From: an uncultured Verrucomicrobia subdivision 3 bacterium
GTDB taxonomy: Bacteria > Verrucomicrobiota > Verrucomicrobiia > Limisphaerales > UBA11358
DNA length: 64,000 nucleotides
Reading direction: 5' to 3'
Assembly: GCA_903850425.1 (NCBI GenBank)
Contig: CAINLR010000141.1
Span: 109,296-173,295, forward strand
Below the pieces are notes generated by a model. That model made no database searches, was not told the DNA's origin, and was given only the letters and a program-made list of their open reading frames with translations. The position numbers and the translations under genes are program-made. Of this stretch, positions 11,063 to 49,400 are shown piece after piece. Each line of letters starts with the position of its first letter. The stretch's first letter is position 1.

Positions 11063-14000
11063 GTGGAACAACCCAGCCCAATCATGACTCCGGCCACCGG
11101 CGAACGCCGCCTGCGTTTTGTCGGTGACAAAATTCATTTCGCCATTCGCGCCGACAAAAAAATCGCGACGCCCAAGCACTGGTCCGCCTGGCTCCGCACC
11201 AATCTCGGCCGCGCCGCCGCGCGCCGCCGCGAAATCATTTCCGCGCACGCCGGGCAAGCGGTGGTGGCCAATTCTTCCTGGCGCGACCTGCCGATGCCAC
11301 GCACCGCCGACGGCTGGGAAATCGAACTGCCGCTCGCCGAAGTCGGCTACTTCAAGGCCAAGGCCTACTTGCTCGATGAAAAAAACTGGCAGCACTGGCC
11401 GGACGGCTCGGACGTTGGCATCTCGGTTCATCCCAATTTCGCGCGGACGGCGAACACGATTTACTGCGCCTTCACGCGGCTTTTTGGCACGACCAAAAAT
11501 CTCGCTTCCACCGCCGACGACAAAATGGAGGCGCAGCTCAAATCGCTCGAAGTGCTTGGCTACGCCACGTTGCCGCCATCGGGAAAGTTTCGCGACCTCG
11601 CCAAACAGTTGCCGCATATCGTCAATAAACTTGGCTGCCGCATTATACATCTGCTGCCCGTGCATCCGACGCCCACGACCTACGCGCGGTTCGGCCGCTT
11701 CGGCAGTCCGTATGCCGCGCTGGATTTGACCGCCGTGGATCCCGCGCTCGTCGAGTTCGACAAACGAACGACCGGCATTGACCAATTCTGCGAACTTACC
11801 TACGCCGCGCACGCGCTGGGCGCGCGGGTGTTCATTGACATCGTCATCAACCACACCGGCTGGGGTTCGGCGCTGCAAGAAAACCATCCGGAATTTTTCC
11901 TGAAAAATCCGGCTGGCGAATTTGCCAGCCCCGGCGCGTGGGGCACCGTTTGGGAAGATTTAGTCGAGCTGGAGCAGCACGACGTCAAGCTCTGGGATCT
12001 CATCGCCGATTCACTGATCACCTGGTGCCGGCGCGGCGTGGACGGCTTCCGCTGTGATGCCGGTTACAAAATTCCCGCGCCCGCCTGGCAATACATCGTC
12101 GCCCGCGTCCAGGAAGAATTTCCCGAAACCATTTTCCTGCTTGAAGGACTCGGCGGCTCATGGGACGCCACCGAACTGCTGCTGACCGAAGGCGGCATGC
12201 ACTGGGCCTACTCCGAGCTGTTCCAAAATTATTCCGGGCGCGACGTGACGGCTTACCTCGATTACGCCAACCGCCAGAGCGAACGCATCGGCGGCTATGT
12301 CCATTATAGCGAGACACACGACAACGCGCGCCTCGCCGCAAAAAAAAGTGACGAGTGGCAAATGGCAAGTGGCAAGGCCGACGCCGCAAACATCACTTCT
12401 CCGGGTCGCGCCTGGTCGCTGCTGCGCAATCGTCTCTGCGCGCTCACCAGCCCCAGCGGCGGCTTCGGTTTTACGTGCGGCGTGGAATGGCTCGCCGCCG
12501 AAAAAATCCGAGTCCATGGCAACACCGGTTTGAACTGGGACTGCGCCGAGAACATCGTCCCCGAACTCACGCAACTGAACCAACTCCTCGCCAACCACCC
12601 GTGTTTTTTTGACGGCGCGAAGCTCACCCGCGTGAGCGCTGCCGACTCGCCCATCTACGCGCTGCTCCGCGAATCCGTCGAAGGCAAGGACGCGGTTTTG
12701 GTTTTGGTCAACACCGAGGTCGAAAACGAAAACTCGATTGCGTTCGCTGCTCAAGCTGGCGCGACGGCTGCGCCCGCCGCCGATTTCAAATTTCAAATTT
12801 CAAATTTCAAATTCGACCTGCTCGGCCAGTCGCCGCCAAAAGTGTCAACCTTTGGGCAGAAAAATTCAATCACCGTGCCGCCGGGCGCGGCATTTTGCCT
12901 CGCGCCGACCGAGCAGCCTGTCGGCCTGAGCGGCGACGGGTATCGCCGGGCCCGTGCGCAGGCGGCGTGGGTGATTCAGGCTCTGTGCAAAATCATTCCG
13001 GCCGAAACCGTGGATGGGCTCGATTGGCAATGGCTCGCGCAACAAGTCGAACGCTCACCGAAAGACCTGCTTGCCGCCGCCAGTGAACTTGCCGCGCGCG
13101 AAGTCAAAGTCGCGCTGGCTGATTTGCTGGCCGAAGTTGAAGCCGCAAGAGTGTTTTCGCGGGTCATTGAATGGACTTTGCTCGACGCCCGCCGCATCAC
13201 GCTGGTGCCGCCGGGCCATTGGTTGTTGATTGAAGACTCGGCACCATTCCGCGCCACGCTGGCGAGCGGCGATTCAGCAGCCAGCAGCCAGCAGCCAGCC
13301 ACGCACGTCGAATCCATCGCCGCGGGCGACCGGCACCTCGCCTGCTTCGCCCCGCGCGATTCAGCAGCGGAAGCAAAACTGACGTTGGAACGCTACGCCG
13401 CCACTTCGCAAAAAGTTACGGCCATGATCCGTTTTCTTGCGCCCGAACCTGAATGCTCAGCCCTCAACCTTCAACCCTCAACTCTAGTTTTGCTGACCAA
13501 TGGCATCGGCGGCATGGCGCGGTTGTGCGTGGATTTGGGCCGCGTGAATTCCAAATACGACTGCGCGCTCGGCGCGAATTTGAATCCGACGGTGCCGGTG
13601 GACCGCCACGTTTTTGTGAAGCGCCTCCGCGTCTGGGTGAATGCCGACGGCTTTCTCTCACCGCTCGACTTCAAGAATCTCAAGTCATTCACTGCCGGTT
13701 CGCCGGCTGTCTGGAATTTTGTGGCGAACGCCGGTGATAGCCGCACGGTGGAAATCGAGTTGCGTGCCGAAATGCGCGCCGGCAAAAACACCACGCTGTT
13801 TCGCTTCAGCCGCCCGGATGCGAAACTCGCGCATGGCAAGCAACTGCCGGCCGACGCCGACGTGCGCCTGACCGTGCGCGTGGACATCGAAGACCGGAAT
13901 TTTCACAGCGAAACCAAACGCAATGACGGCGCGGATTTCCATTTTTCATCAAACGTCCATCCGACGTTGGCCCCGAAATCCAAGACTCCGGTTGGTTTCG

Positions 14001-15547
14001 CTTTCACGCCGGCGGTGGATCGCCAGTTGGGCGTCGTGGCGGATGTCGGCGAGTTTCATCCGCAGCCCGAGTGGTGCGAAAACATTCCGCACCCGGTCGA
14101 ACAAACGCGCGGCCAGACCGGCAGCGGCGACGCCTACAGCCCCGGCTGGTTTGAGTTGCCGCTGGCGAAAGGCGCGAGCGCGACGCTGGCGCTGACAGCC
14201 GAAACCAAAGAAACCAAAGAAATCAAAAGCGGAAAGCGGAAAGCGGAAAGCGAAAATTCAGAAGCCAATTTTGAAGCGCAGTTGGAACACGCGGCGAAAC
14301 AGTTCGTCGTCCGCCGCGATGACGGCAAGACCGTCATCGCCGGCTATCCTTGGTTTTTGGACTGGGGCCGTGACTCGCTCATCTGCGCCCGCGGACTGCT
14401 GGCCGCCGGCATGACCGACGAAGTGAAACAACTGCTGCTCACCTTCGCCAAATTTGAAAAGGATGGCACGCTGCCGAACACCATTCACGGCAACGACGTT
14501 TCCAATCGCGACACTTCCGACGCGCCGCTGTGGTTTGCCGTGGTCTGCGAGGACCTGGCGGCTTTGGAGTGCGGCGACACGTCGCCGCTTTCGACGACGC
14601 GACCGGTCGCGTCGTTGCCAAGCGCGGCCAAGTCCGCGCACTCCAAATTCTTCGCGACTCGCGTTGATAAATCAGGCCGCACCATCCGTGACGTGCTCAC
14701 CAGCATTGCGGACAACTACGCCACAGGCACACCCAACGGCATCCGCATGGATGCCGACTCCGCGCTGATCTGGAGTCCGAGCCATTTCACCTGGATGGAC
14801 ACGAATTATCCCGCCGGCACGCCGCGCGAAGGTTATCCCGTCGAGATTCAGGTCTTGTGGGTTCGCCTGCTGCGGCTGCTGGAAAAAATTTCCGCAACCG
14901 CCGAACAAAAGAAATGGCGCGACCTTGCCGATCACGCGACGGCTTCGTTTGAAAAGCTGTTCTGGCTCGAAGAGCAAGGCTGGTTTGCCGATGAACTCAT
15001 CGCCAAGTCACACGTCACCGCCCGCGACGCCACGGTGAGTGATGCCCTGCGGAGCAATTGTCTGTTCGCCGTGAGCCTCGGTCTCGTCACCGGCGAACGT
15101 GCCAAACGCTGTGTCGCCGCCGCCCAGAAATACCTCGTCGTGCCGGGCGCGCTGCGCACGCTCGCGCCGCTGCCGGTGTCGGTTCCATTGCCGATTTACA
15201 GCAACGACGGGCGATTGATCAACAATCCTCCGGACCCGTATTGGCCGCGCTACGAAGGCGATGAGGACACGCGCCGCAAACCCGCGTATCACAACGGCAC
15301 GGCGTGGACATGGACCTTTCCGACCTTTTGCGAGGCGCTCGCAGCGGCTTGGGATTTTTCACCGGAAGCTGTGGCGGCGTCGAAAAGTTATCTGGGCAGC
15401 GCTGACAGACTGTTGAAGGAAGGCTGCCTTGGCCAGCTTCCCGAAATCCTCGATGGCGATGCGCCGCACACGCAACGCGGCTGCGACGCGCAGGCGTGGG
15501 GCGCGACCGAGGCACTGCGCGTGTGGAAATTATTGGGTCAGGATTGA
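11063..15547 (+). CDS. Two-domain glycogen-debranching-type enzyme (GH13-like plus amylo-alpha-1,6-glucosidase)
   Basis: The protein is 1494 aa from GTG 11063; an ATG at 11084 is an alternative start. Residues 120-540 form a GH13-type barrel with INHTG (262-266), GVDGFRCDAG (likely nucleophile Asp332), LLEGLGG (Glu361) and YSETHDNARL (His419-Asp420). The C-terminal part (about 1075-1494) is a GDE_C (alpha/alpha)6 domain with GYPWFLDWGRDSLI and the end motif NGTAWTWTFPTFCEAL. This pairing of a transferase-like and a glucosidase domain suggests glycogen or alpha-glucan debranching. There is no signal peptide, so it is cytoplasmic. Unusually, six short repeats appear to be read through in frame (near residues 430, 573, 738, 798, 1046 and 1167), adding low-complexity peptides. 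Confidence 0.88.
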   Translation: MEQPSPIMTPATGERRLRFVGDKIHFAIRADKKIATPKHWSAWLRTNLGRAAARRREIISAHAGQAVVANSSWRDLPMPRTADGWEIELPLAEVGYFKAKAYLLDEKNWQHWPDGSDVGISVHPNFARTANTIYCAFTRLFGTTKNLASTADDKMEAQLKSLEVLGYATLPPSGKFRDLAKQLPHIVNKLGCRIIHLLPVHPTPTTYARFGRFGSPYAALDLTAVDPALVEFDKRTTGIDQFCELTYAAHALGARVFIDIVINHTGWGSALQENHPEFFLKNPAGEFASPGAWGTVWEDLVELEQHDVKLWDLIADSLITWCRRGVDGFRCDAGYKIPAPAWQYIVARVQEEFPETIFLLEGLGGSWDATELLLTEGGMHWAYSELFQNYSGRDVTAYLDYANRQSERIGGYVHYSETHDNARLAAKKSDEWQMASGKADAANITSPGRAWSLLRNRLCALTSPSGGFGFTCGVEWLAAEKIRVHGNTGLNWDCAENIVPELTQLNQLLANHPCFFDGAKLTRVSAADSPIYALLRESVEGKDAVLVLVNTEVENENSIAFAAQAGATAAPAADFKFQISNFKFDLLGQSPPKVSTFGQKNSITVPPGAAFCLAPTEQPVGLSGDGYRRARAQAAWVIQALCKIIPAETVDGLDWQWLAQQVERSPKDLLAAASELAAREVKVALADLLAEVEAARVFSRVIEWTLLDARRITLVPPGHWLLIEDSAPFRATLASGDSAASSQQPATHVESIAAGDRHLACFAPRDSAAEAKLTLERYAATSQKVTAMIRFLAPEPECSALNLQPSTLVLLTNGIGGMARLCVDLGRVNSKYDCALGANLNPTVPVDRHVFVKRLRVWVNADGFLSPLDFKNLKSFTAGSPAVWNFVANAGDSRTVEIELRAEMRAGKNTTLFRFSRPDAKLAHGKQLPADADVRLTVRVDIEDRNFHSETKRNDGADFHFSSNVHPTLAPKSKTPVGFAFTPAVDRQLGVVADVGEFHPQPEWCENIPHPVEQTRGQTGSGDAYSPGWFELPLAKGASATLALTAETKETKEIKSGKRKAESENSEANFEAQLEHAAKQFVVRRDDGKTVIAGYPWFLDWGRDSLICARGLLAAGMTDEVKQLLLTFAKFEKDGTLPNTIHGNDVSNRDTSDAPLWFAVVCEDLAALECGDTSPLSTTRPVASLPSAAKSAHSKFFATRVDKSGRTIRDVLTSIADNYATGTPNGIRMDADSALIWSPSHFTWMDTNYPAGTPREGYPVEIQVLWVRLLRLLEKISATAEQKKWRDLADHATASFEKLFWLEEQGWFADELIAKSHVTARDATVSDALRSNCLFAVSLGLVTGERAKRCVAAAQKYLVVPGALRTLAPLPVSVPLPIYSNDGRLINNPPDPYWPRYEGDEDTRRKPAYHNGTAWTWTFPTFCEALAAAWDFSPEAVAASKSYLGSADRLLKEGCLGQLPEILDGDAPHTQRGCDAQAWGATEALRVWKLLGQD
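12350..12377. repeat. Short tandem 'AGTGGCAAATGGCAAGTGGC' repeat inside the debranching gene
   Basis: Units of roughly ATGGCA/GTGGCA recur about four times here and encode the peptide EWQMASGK in frame, just after the GH13 His-Asp motif. The neighbouring protein is well conserved in type, so the stretch looks like an insertion into a loop. Confidence 0.5.
12783..12813. repeat. Tandem 'ATTTCAA' repeat inside the debranching gene
   Basis: About four tandem copies of a 7-9 bp unit (TTTCAAA) encode the peptide FKFQISNFKF in frame. AT-rich runs of this sequence are common between genes in Verrucomicrobiota, as far as I recall. Here the run lies in the linker between the GH13-like domain and the middle region. 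Confidence 0.65.
13275..13301. repeat. Tandem 'CAGCAGC/CAGC' repeat inside the debranching gene
   Basis: Three copies of the 7-bp unit CAGCAGC are read in frame as a Ser/Gln-rich peptide (SAASSQQPAT) inside the debranching-enzyme gene. It is low-complexity and unlike its surroundings. Confidence 0.55.
13456..13488. repeat. Tandem 'CCCTCAACCTTCAAC' repeat inside the debranching gene
   Basis: About four degenerate CTCAACC/TTCAACC units are read as CSALNLQPSTL in frame within the middle region of the debranching-enzyme gene. Confidence 0.5.
14200..14262. repeat. Purine-rich tandem repeats inside the debranching gene
   Basis: ACCAAAGAA units are followed by three GCGGAAA units, and together they encode a charged peptide (AETKETKEIK, then SGKRKAESEN) just ahead of the GDE_C domain. 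A close relative of the GCGGAAA run occurs at 21291, upstream of the CbiX gene. Confidence 0.6.
14563..14647. repeat. 85-bp palindromic element inserted in frame in the debranching gene
   Basis: The termini are TTTGGAGTGCGG and CGCACTCCAAA, an inverted repeat. The centre holds a perfect 22-nt palindrome at 14594-14615, containing GACGCGACCGGTCGCGTC. The element is translated as part of the GDE_C domain (ALECGDTSPLS, then SAAKSAHSKF), so the reading frame survives. Elements with the same GGAGTGCGG ends are, to my recollection, common between genes of Verrucomicrobiota. Confidence 0.75.
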
Positions 15548-21290: not shown

Positions 21291-21326
21291 AATGAAAAGC
21301 GAAAAGCGGAAAGCGGGAAAGCAGAA
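21291..21326. repeat. Purine-rich 'GAAAAGCGGAAAGCGGG' tandem repeat
   Basis: Four GAAAGC/GGAAAGC units lie between hddA and the CbiX gene. The run is read by the long frames on both strands, which falsely extends the N-termini of both genes. It is nearly identical to the run inside the debranching-enzyme gene at 14229-14255. Confidence 0.6.
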
Positions 21327-21420: not shown

Positions 21421-22266
21421 GTGCAACGTGATCATTTCGCCGATGCCGTGCTGGTTGTGCTCGGTCATGGCACCACCTTGAACGACCAGTCCGCCGCGCC
21501 GGTGTGGCATCATGCGGCGGAGCTGCGCCGGCGGAAAATCTTCGCCGAGGTGCGCGCGGCGTTTTGGAAACAGGAGCCGCAGGTTAAAAAAGTGCTGGCG
21601 GAAATCACCGCGCCGCGCGTTTTTATCGTGCCGTTTTTCATCAGCGAAGGCTACTTCAGCACGGAAATCATTCCGCAGGAATTGGGCTTTCATTTTCCCG
21701 ACCATTTGTCACGCGCCACTCGTCACTCGTCACTGTTTTACGGCCGCCCCGTCGGCTCGCACGACCTGATGACCAAAGTCATTCTCGCCCGGGCGGCTGA
21801 AGTCGTGAGGCAATTTCCCTTTCCGCGCGCACCCAAACCGGCGGACACGACGCTGCTTATCGCCGGGCATGGCACCGGGCGCAACGTCAATTCCCGCCAA
21901 GCCGTCGAGCGACAGGTGGATTTGATCCGGGCGCAAAACATTTATGCCGGAGTCGGCGCGGTTTTCATGGAGGAAGCGCCGTTCATCAAAGACTGTCACG
22001 CGGCGGTGAAAACGAAGAACCTGGTCGTCGTGCCGTTCTTCATCAGCGACGGCTTGCACGCCGTCGAGGACATTCCGGTTTTGCTCGGCGAACCGGCGCG
22101 CCTCGTCCAGGAGCGCCATGCCGCCGGCCGGCCGACCTGGCGCAATCCGACCGAGCGCGCGGGCAAGCTCATCTGGTATTCGCCTTCGGTCGGCACCGAG
22201 CCGCTGCTGGCGGACGTCATTTTGGAACGCGCTTTTGAAACCGCGCGGCTGGCGGATGGAAAATAG
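21421..22266 (+). CDS. CbiX/SirB-family chelatase-like protein
   Basis: The protein is 281 aa from GTG 21421 (VQRDHFADAVLVVLGHG). It has two tandem CbiX-type halves, each with its own GHG motif: VVLGHGTTLN near residue 13 and LLIAGHGTGRN near 148. FIVPFFISEGYFS and VVVPFFISDGLHA are the matching second motifs. CbiX/SirB proteins insert metal into tetrapyrroles, but no cobalamin or haem gene is nearby, so the substrate is unknown. The frame opens earlier, at 21292, but that part is repeat-derived. A short repeat (RATRHSS) sits in the linker between the halves, and the last residues come from another repeat. Confidence 0.85.
   Translation: MQRDHFADAVLVVLGHGTTLNDQSAAPVWHHAAELRRRKIFAEVRAAFWKQEPQVKKVLAEITAPRVFIVPFFISEGYFSTEIIPQELGFHFPDHLSRATRHSSLFYGRPVGSHDLMTKVILARAAEVVRQFPFPRAPKPADTTLLIAGHGTGRNVNSRQAVERQVDLIRAQNIYAGVGAVFMEEAPFIKDCHAAVKTKNLVVVPFFISDGLHAVEDIPVLLGEPARLVQERHAAGRPTWRNPTERAGKLIWYSPSVGTEPLLADVILERAFETARLADGK
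21709..21734. repeat. Tandem 'CACTCGTCACTCGTCACT' repeat inside the CbiX gene
   Basis: Three CACTCGT units (after GTCACGCGC) are translated in frame as LSRATRHSSL within the loop between the two CbiX halves. It is a short direct repeat without secondary structure. Confidence 0.6.
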
Positions 22267-46478: not shown

Positions 46479-49400
46479 TCACTCCTTTGTCAGCCAAACG
46501 ACGGCTGCACTCGGCAATGGGACATTGCTTCCAGCTTTCACAATTTCGCCCAGCGTAACTTCCCCGGACCTTGTGTTCACGGTGTTCACCCGAAATGAGC
46601 CGGCCTCTGTTGATAGATCCAATTCGACTTTGCCGCCGCAAACCAAAAATTGCTTGCCGGCCTCACGCAAAACCCAGCGTTCTTTTGTGGACGCTTCCGC
46701 CCACGGCTGCATCTTGGGAATCGCGGTGAGCAGCTTCGCATCGGTGGTTTTCGGCAGGCGTGGCAGCGAGCCGCCCGCGCAAACCCACGCCCAGCCGGCG
46801 GAATCAAAATCGCAGATCAGCGCCTTGGCGGGAAATTTTGCGCGATACTCGGCCGCCATGCCGGCGAGATTCGAATCGTTCGGGCGACCGCCCTTCCATT
46901 GCCGCTCAAACTGGCGCGGCGCGAGATTTTGTCCGCCGTTCGGTGCGAACAACCCCTTGTCGGTGGTCCACCAATATTTGAAATCAATCACATTCACCAG
47001 CGCACTGCGCGGGGCGTCGGCGAGAATCGCGTCCTGCACGTCCTTCGTGCAACTCAAGGCCACCAGCGGCTTCCGCCCCTTCTCCCGCTCCCATTCGTCA
47101 ATTGTATCCAGCCAGAATTCCACGAACTGTTTTGGGCCGGTGAACTCCGCGCTCGTAAACTGGATCACGTTGGCGTTATTCGTGAAGTTGTCGAGGGATT
47201 GGCGGATGAAACCGCGATGCAGCGCGCGGCGAACCGGATGGCTCACATCATAAAACTGTTCCGCCATGAAAATGCGCTTGTCGCCGGCGAACGGCGGCGG
47301 TTCAGGAAAGCCGGTGGCGTTGATGTTGTTGGCCGGGCGCCACGGACAATCCACCCAATGCGCGCCGGCTTCAATGATGTTGTGCTGGAGATAATTTTCG
47401 TTGAACAGCACCAGGCCGCGCTCGTCGCAAAGGCCGGCAAAACTTTTCAGCCGCGACCAATACCACGGATTAAATTTCGTCAGGTCGTATTGGCTCAAGC
47501 CATCCCACGCCGTCCCCTGCCCGCTTCGTGCGAACGGTTGCTCGAAGAACGGCGGAATCACCTCGCCGTCCATGCGGCGCACACGCTCGTGGTCGTCGCG
47601 GCGGAGGTCATACCAGAGGCCATAATGGTGATCGAGCGCGACCGCGCCGCGCTGTGCCAGCGTGTCGGCGAGTTCGTTGAGGTCGTCCGTGAAACCGGCG
47701 CCGCTGCGGCCCGGGACAAACCGCGTGAGCGCCGGACCAAACGTCGCCGCTTCGTCGGCGTGAATGCTGCCGCGCCACCACGCCACTTCCGTCGTGCCGC
47801 CGATCAGCAGTTTGCCGTCGCCGGTAAGCCAGCCGTTGGTGATGGAAATTGGGTGATGCGTGAGGCGTGAGGCGGGATTCAGTTCGGCGTTGCCTTCAAT
47901 TCGGTTTGCATTGCCAGGTTCACTGGGAATCGGATTTCGCTTGGCAGCAGCAGCGATGTAATCGCCCAGTTGCGGCGCGGGTTGGCGCGATGCAGCGATG
48001 AGTTCCGCCGCTTCCTCGACGGATGGATTGGTGGATTCTTTGGTCGCGCGCGAGATAAGTTGCGTGCGGCGGCCGGTCCGTTCGGCGAGTTGCGCGGCGT
48101 AAAGGCTTTCGGGTTTCATGAACCCGTTCGAGTTGCGCCAGACGCCGTCGCCTTCGAAGCCGGCCCACGAACCAAAGCTCCAGTTTTGCGCGCCGGGCGG
48201 ATTCCAGCAGCGGATGACCGACGCGCTGCAATTCCACAGCACAGAGTTGGCGGCGGCCCAGCCGATGCCGGCATTGTTACCCGCGCGGTAGCCGAGCGAA
48301 ATCGCGTTGCCATCAATACGCACGTTGTCGAACAGCGTGCCGGATGCCCAGCTTTCCACCGCGCCGCTGTCGGCGAGCGCTGCGCTGGCTTCGCATTGCA
48401 CAAATGCATTCGGCCCGGCGGCACAGTGGCCCACGGAAAAATCGTGGCGGCCATGCTCGGCAAAGCAGCGCAGGAACAGCGTCTGTTGCCCCATCGTGAA
48501 AAATGTGTTCCGCCGATAGCCACCGATTTCCGAAATCGGCGCGAGCGACAAACAATCCTCCACCGTCACCCATTTGCAGCTTTCGTAAATAGCCACCGCC
48601 GAGCCGGCAAAATGGCAGAAGGTGACCTGACGCACCCAGACATCTTCGGCGTTTTCCATGGTGATGGCGCACCAGGAATGATCTTCATCCTTGGGATTGC
48701 CTTCGTCAAAAGCGGATTCGAGCCGCAGATTTTCCACACCAACATGGTTGATTCGCCCTGGCCACTGGCACGAAACGACGTGCGGAGTCTCTAACTTCGC
48801 TGGTGTTTCTATTTGCGACTCGTCACCTTGTTTCCTACCAATCATCGGATTTTCAATCGCCGTCGTGATCGGCGCGTCCACGGTCACAAGCTTGCCTGCG
48901 ATGGAAGTCACCACGCGATCCCAGACAATGTCACGACTGCCGGGCTTCCAACCGCCGCCTTCACCGCCGCCGAAATCCGTGGCCCCTAATTGATCAATCC
49001 ACGCTTTCGGGCTGGGACGAACCACCCGAATGGAACTGCCGGCCTGGATTCCATCCGTTTCCTTCAGATGAAAACTCGTGGCTCCGACGGGAACGTAATT
49101 GTCCGTAATCTCCCAGTTTGCATTGGAATGGCTGGACAAAATCTTTTGCCCGACGATGCGAATTAGCGTGCGCCGGTCATTTCCGGCGGCGACCAGAATG
49201 GTCCCGGCTTCGCCCGCGCTCTGGCCGCGCAGGACCACGCCAGAGTTCGTGATTTGTAATCCACCGAGAATCTCGTGCCGGCCCGTGAGCAGCAATACCG
49301 CGCCGCGCCCGCCGTTTGAATCGGCGGGCAAACTGGCAACGTAATCAATCGCCTCTTGGATGCGCGCGGTTTCGTCGCCGGCGATCGGAGAAACGACTAC

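Follow-up and report, generated by a model that had tools for sequence, protein, structure and literature searches.

The debranching enzyme gene and its repeats

The window analyzed here, a stretch of 64,000 nucleotides, covers positions 109296-173295 of contig C141 in a 6.9-Mb draft genome. The named genomes closest to this one are MAGs of Limisphaerales / Verrucomicrobia subdivision 3. It contains a gene coding for a glycogen debranching enzyme, and this gene is the host of all the repeats listed in Table 1. The ORF begins with GTG, codes for 1494 aa, and is open throughout; an alternative start at 11084 was given by our home-made gene call. Pfam domains Alpha-amylase (residues 174-337), GDE_N (809-1040), and GDE_C (1077-1485) were matched, and by sequence the front part of the protein is closest to solved structures of alpha-amylases, and a stretch of the back part to those of glycogen debranching enzymes. 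These results agree with the sequence-only reading of this DNA, which had described a recognizable GH13 plus GDE_C protein with repeats read in frame: the gene is intact and contains five tandem arrays and one 85-bp palindrome (R6). The enzyme was matched in 56 of 59 relatives. In addition, records titled Methylacidimicrobium, Methylacidiphilum, Holophagaceae, and Akkermansia muciniphila (L112, L118, L143, and L145) carry relatives of the enzyme with 50-78% identity, and the titles of these records may be misassigned.

Table 1. Position and nature of the debranching enzyme gene and of the repeats within it (window coordinates).
Feature	Position	Strand	Description	Basis
Gene	11063..15547	+	Glycogen debranching enzyme (GH13 + GDE_N + GDE_C), host of all repeats	Open ORF, Pfam, relatives
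R1	12346..12376 (array 12356-12376)	+	Degenerate heptad array TGGCAA[A/G]; peptide SDEWQMASGK, aa 428-438	Mismatch-tolerant period-7 scan
R2	12783..12813	+	Heptad array ATTTCAA x4.4; peptide FKFQISNFKF, aa 574-584	TRF
R3	13275..13299	+	Heptad array CAGCAGC x3.6; peptide SAASSQQPA, aa 738-746	TRF
R4	13456..13482	+	Degenerate heptad array CTCAACC; peptide SALNLQPST, aa 798-808	Mismatch-tolerant period-7 scan
R5a	14201..14227	+	Period-9 array GAAACCAAA x3; peptide ETKETKEIK	Read from sequence
R5b	14226..14256	+	Heptad array AAAGCGG x4.4; peptide KSGKRKAESEN, aa 1055-1065	TRF
R6	14563..14647	+	85-bp palindromic dispersed element; peptide LECGDTSPLSTTRPVASLPSAAKSAHSK, aa 1168-1195	Fold, copies, orthologue comparison

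All five main tandem arrays have a period of 7 and five different units, a shared period that the earlier reading had missed; R1 and R4 fall under the TRF threshold. The short period-9 array R5a runs on into R5b, whose unit AAAGCGG is common to several congeners. R1 is a portion of a ~20-aa insertion common only to the window and the congener L018, and the same site in L018 carries an inverted pair of heptad arrays within the gene. From the sampled coding density, 0.12 period-7 arrays would be expected in a gene of this size, compared with the five found (P = 2e-7 for at least five, before correction for the number of genes). A single dispersed family for all six repeats was also considered, and it was rejected because each of the five arrays has its own unit and the palindrome does not resemble them.

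The suggestion that the repeats favor loops was borne out by the alignment and by the structural models. In the alignment of 49 orthologues, 70 period-7 arrays were located close to variable columns, and no such array was located in a conserved stretch; arrays of other periods numbered 1-4 in each of the two classes. The AlphaFold2 models (mean pLDDT 76-77, 34 sequences, with fragment numbering plus 639 and plus 4) placed R3, R4, R5, and R6 in loops that connect secondary-structure elements and in which the pLDDT is mostly < 50, R3 being in a loop that joins two strands. R1 and R2 were placed in stretches of low confidence, at the end of a helix and in a loop.

Period-7 arrays in the genome and in the phylum

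Tandem 7-nt arrays occur in the source genome beyond chance, as do the heptanucleotide long simple sequence repeats of other bacteria. A 630-kb sample of this genome yielded 24 period-7 arrays, compared with none in Markov-3 sequence at an equal threshold, and the runner-up periods reached 6 arrays each; the figures for the source genome are based on these 630 kb (9% of the genome) and on genome-wide pattern searches. The rate was 38 per Mb in the source genome and 37 in the genus (750 kb); other families within the order gave 26, and the phylum's other orders and classes gave 17.5. No period-7 array was found in the 200 kb of E. coli K-12 scanned. The repeats had been attributed to a process of this lineage, but the period-7 arrays are spread through the phylum and are not confined in this way. 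With two mismatches allowed, AAAGCGG-like arrays were detected at ~13 genome loci and ATTTCAA-like arrays at ~10, compared with 1 and 0 for the reversed-pattern controls, so the repeats are not private to the debranching gene and do occur elsewhere in the genome, as the earlier reading implied. An exact search for ATTTCAA x3 returned the debranching gene alone, an outcome that by itself would have spoken against the earlier reading; the ~10 loci appeared once two mismatches were permitted. A search for further repeat families through the most frequent 12-mers gave GC-rich codon repeats only. Three more heptad arrays are present in the window at 21294-21316, 21710-21734, and 47853-47874, one being intergenic, one in a CbiX gene, and one in a gene coding for 1040 aa.

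Many of these arrays are genic and in frame. A simple hexamer gene caller was used to delimit genes in 1.38 Mb of the source genome and its congeners; of the 72 arrays there, 39 lie wholly within genes, and the array density is about 33 per Mb in coding sequence vs. about 160 per Mb outside. The array-bearing genes of the source genome include those coding for MutL, CinA, a MoaE-MoeA fusion, RibD, CbiX, a UvrD-type helicase-nuclease, an NADH dehydrogenase subunit, and an M16 peptidase. For example, mutL (L045 9755-11788), on contig C141, contains a heptad array coding for QISNLKSHI (aa 265-273) at the edge of the DNA_mis_repair domain. The gene for the UvrD-type helicase-nuclease (L053 12430-16080) codes in frame for SHGQDARAT from CACGGGCAGGATGCCCGTG, and that for the NADH dehydrogenase subunit (L054 12196-13818) codes for GVAPTTLSSGATPADARETRALP at the C-terminus; both of these peptides are possibly repeat-derived.

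Like arrays being denser between genes also bears on the possibility that the repeat peptides are adaptive linkers for solubility or flexibility, with the DNA repeats as a by-product. All of the repeats of the debranching enzyme lie in loops or in low-confidence helix ends of the AlphaFold2 models, which is consistent with such a role. However, 7 is not a codon period, the peptides of one loop differ widely among species, and arrays of this type are more frequent in intergenic DNA, which makes this explanation highly improbable. The predicted repeat-derived peptides are most likely without function.

An inverted partner was found near 15 of the 33 intergenic or gene-edge arrays vs. 2 of the 39 coding arrays, and many of the former follow a stop codon by no more than ~10 nt. 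Heptad arrays in inverted pairs, spaced 10-40 nt apart, were seen at L044 13304-13406, L052 17001-17096, L075 5073-5168, and L079 12328-12398. The L079 pair is inside a predicted gene; the first three are intergenic, 3-6 nt from a stop codon, and look like hairpins at mRNA ends.

According to a survey of 2007, heptanucleotides outnumber the other classes of long simple repeat in most of the bacterial genomes covered, and slippage was proposed as their origin (Mrazek, 2007, as cited in PMC4679880 and PMC4692102). The cases described in detail are TAACTGA in Beggiatoaceae and GGGAATC in Xanthomonas and Nostoc (PMC4679880, PMC4692102), and 7-11% of the heptad repeats of Xanthomonas are intragenic (PMC4692102). 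The arrays reported here are similar to these known repeats in that they consist of a few seven-base units, are dispersed in the genome, and often lie near gene ends. In contrast to the TAACTGA and GGGAATC cases, in which one unit dominates and most arrays are intergenic, the units found here number in the dozens (64 distinct ones in 127 arrays), roughly half of the arrays lie within genes, and one gene carries five; one dominant unit and a mostly intergenic location are traits of the two best described cases and not of the general heptad class. In the open PMC literature we found no description of heptamer or palindromic repeats of such kinds in Verrucomicrobia beyond a report on O. terrae (PMC3733652), and likewise none of array density in conserved genes, of unit turnover at fixed loops, or of a ceiling on the length of arrays with non-G units. 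Repeats of these kinds are already known; their number in one gene and the change of unit at a fixed loop are unusual.

Unit turnover, probable decay, and array length at orthologous loops

Across the genus, heptad arrays occur in frame in seven loops of the debranching enzyme, and one loop carries different units in different species: 13 units in 19 species at R4, and 9 units in 17 species at R2 (tree set). When the loop columns were left out of the tree, each site showed 5-14 changes of unit. The mean Hamming distance was 2.32 for units of the same site vs. 3.17 for units of different sites, yet only 12% of the same-site pairs were identical, suggesting that the sites are inherited while the units change. 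The R2 unit ATTTCAA (FKFQISNFKF-type) is present at the same site in about nine species, including the window, down to 77% core identity. Orthologues with the same peptide at the same site, which the sequence-only reading had named, for distant relatives, as evidence against itself, were therefore found for FKFQISNFKF within the genus, and not beyond it.

At the two sites R2 and R4, median loop lengths with and without an array were 18 vs. 18 and 18 vs. 20 aa. The repeats had been taken to add peptides to the protein; at R2 and R4 this does not hold, since these loops are no longer than in array-less relatives, and loop lengths likewise exclude, for R2 and R4, that every repeat is an insertion relative to all relatives. 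The array-less loops retain a weak lag-7 excess (0.310 vs. 0.272 ± 0.004). From the equal loop lengths and this faint period-7 trace we infer that old arrays decay and get rewritten. A stop triplet in some phase was present in 3 of 46 units on the sense strand vs. 12 of 46 on the antisense strand. It is extremely improbable that the arrays are an assembly or binning artefact of a metagenome-assembled genome; although the genomes are drafts and most of the named relatives are MAGs, dozens of species with assemblies of their own have arrays in the same loops, and these arrays are in frame in open genes.

The array lengths in the debranching orthologues cluster at 27-35 nt (four to five units), and only 1 of 75 exceeds 36 nt. 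The lengths in the genome sample have a second peak at the detection limit and the same ceiling near 38 nt. This ceiling counts against simple slippage, which is expected to give a falling tail. In more distant Verrucomicrobiota, longer heptad arrays of ~80-145 nt with drifting units were seen (L098 8480-8590, L100 10000-10088, and L221 6635-6780), unlike the ~38 nt ceiling in the genus. The units follow a partial grammar, with 4.49 bits vs. 3.81 ± 0.12 for shuffled units. Identical units at different loops of one gene were found 5 times vs. 1.5 expected (P = 0.01), three of the five being from one species; L115 has the unit AAATCCG at three loops of its debranching gene. Such recurrence hints at copying between sites.

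The heptad arrays might accordingly be miniature mobile elements, in which units of ~31 nt (inverted pairs between genes) are copied from site to site and local slippage plays no part. The length peak with its ceiling is in line with this explanation, as are the inverted partners of 15 of the 33 intergenic or gene-edge arrays, commonly just behind stop codons, the inverted pair within the gene at R1 of L018, the recurrence of AAATCCG in L115, and the roughly 13 AAAGCGG loci. However, mobile elements are hard to reconcile with dozens of units (64 among 127 arrays) and with an inverted partner at only 2 of 39 coding arrays, and identical pairs were only about twofold more frequent within a genome (7/293) than between genomes (10/835). 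We consider this origin possible but rather unlikely. A little more doubtful still is an active process of Verrucomicrobiota that would write or rewrite ~31-nt arrays, each with about four and a half copies of a heptad whose sequence changes; behind stop codons these arrays would form inverted pairs, and in gene loops they would stand singly. If such a process exists, protein loops would keep their length and be continually supplied with new heptad-encoded peptides.

Selection of the arrays as DNA or RNA would offer another reason for the length peak of about four units. In this case, about four seven-base boxes would serve a nucleic-acid-binding protein, or the arrays would form 3' mRNA hairpins, and the genic copies would be tolerated or regulatory. 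The paired arrays right behind stop codons and the partial unit grammar fit such selection. Similarly, in Xanthomonas and Nostoc a seven-base repeat is reported to occur preferentially in four units, and quadruplex folding has been proposed to account for this (PMC4692102). However, that reason cannot hold here, because most units are without the G-tracts invoked, and the turnover of units at orthologous sites is not what a sequence-reading factor would allow. This explanation is therefore improbable.

The palindrome R6 and the probable origin of the repeats

R6 is an imperfect palindrome with arms that are 75% complementary and a fold of -53 kcal/mol (z = -5.3). Its ends, TTTGGAGTGC...GCACTCCAAA, are terminal inverted repeats with 10 bp perfect, as in MITEs, and the consensus fold of the family has three hairpins. 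The source genome contains five or six near-full-length copies, and the non-self ones are 74-81% identical to R6; the best of them reach only 78-81%, which does not point to recent mobility. Matches to the family were found in 23 of 59 relatives, and the alignment of 20 copies revealed compensatory changes in the central stem. R6 itself is absent from the orthologous site in the orthologues, and comparison with empty sites showed no visible target-site duplication. Copies of the palindrome lie in frame in genes of relatives coding for fumarase, MutS (L171), and HydF, largely in the frame of R6 (LECGDxSPLS...); in the source genome, a copy lies in frame at the end of a radical-SAM protein. Three matches to PF01797 (Y1_Tnp), the transposase family of the REP-associated RAYTs, were found in the source genome.

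Palindromes of 105-146 bp inserted in frame in genes are known as Rickettsia palindromic elements (RPE; reviewed in PMC2229807), and the sequence-only reading had proposed a comparable process with several repeat families. Our results support this comparison for the palindrome only. Compared by its features, R6 is similar to an RPE in being a dispersed, hairpin-forming palindrome that lies in frame in genes for conserved proteins (debranching enzyme, fumarase, MutS, HydF, and radical-SAM), largely in one reading frame; it differs in its length of 85 bp and in its occurrence in Limisphaerales, that is, in Verrucomicrobiota. The likeness does not extend to the five tandem arrays, which are heptanucleotide simple repeats with dozens of units. 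REPs are 20-40 bp long and have a GTAG or CGTC tag at one end, and some are found in ORFs, notably of DNA repair genes; the verrucomicrobium O. terrae is rich in GTAG REPs (PMC3733652). R6 resembles these GTAG/CGTC REPs as a palindrome with some copies inside ORFs, but it is longer, has three hairpins in the consensus fold, and ends in TTTGGAGTGC and GCACTCCAAA instead of either tag. Protein-coding MITEs such as ERIC/RU-1 and Correia (PMC2229807) are likewise small elements with terminal inverted repeats that are fused in frame to ORFs; at R6, no target-site duplication was visible.

Taken together, the repeats of the debranching gene probably reflect two neutral or selfish DNA processes acting under selection on the protein, namely the slippage and rewriting of heptads and one REP- or RPE-like insertion. 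Strand slippage in replication or repair would create and homogenize seven-base arrays wherever the DNA is free to change. Within genes, such arrays would survive in loops only, with net lengths that keep the frame and orientations free of stops, and they would later decay by point mutation or be rewritten with a related unit. The loop may thus remain a slot for arrays while the heptad unit turns over. The palindrome R6 may have been copied in by a REP/MITE/RPE-like route, and its open frame and its position between two helices presumably explain why it is tolerated.

If slippage and rewriting of heptads together with one palindrome insertion is the right explanation, enzyme loops in this phylum are a natural record of heptad birth, unit change, and decay that can be read from orthologues. 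In that case, the question of why seven is the favored unit length in many bacterial genomes would become directly testable. A caution also follows for annotators and for those working with metagenomes: dispersed repeat-encoded peptides in these genomes are not homology. In addition, ribD of the source genome (L051 16695-17894) codes for RRHVGALESGDMAPPAKL, a partial and diverged relative of the R6 peptide.
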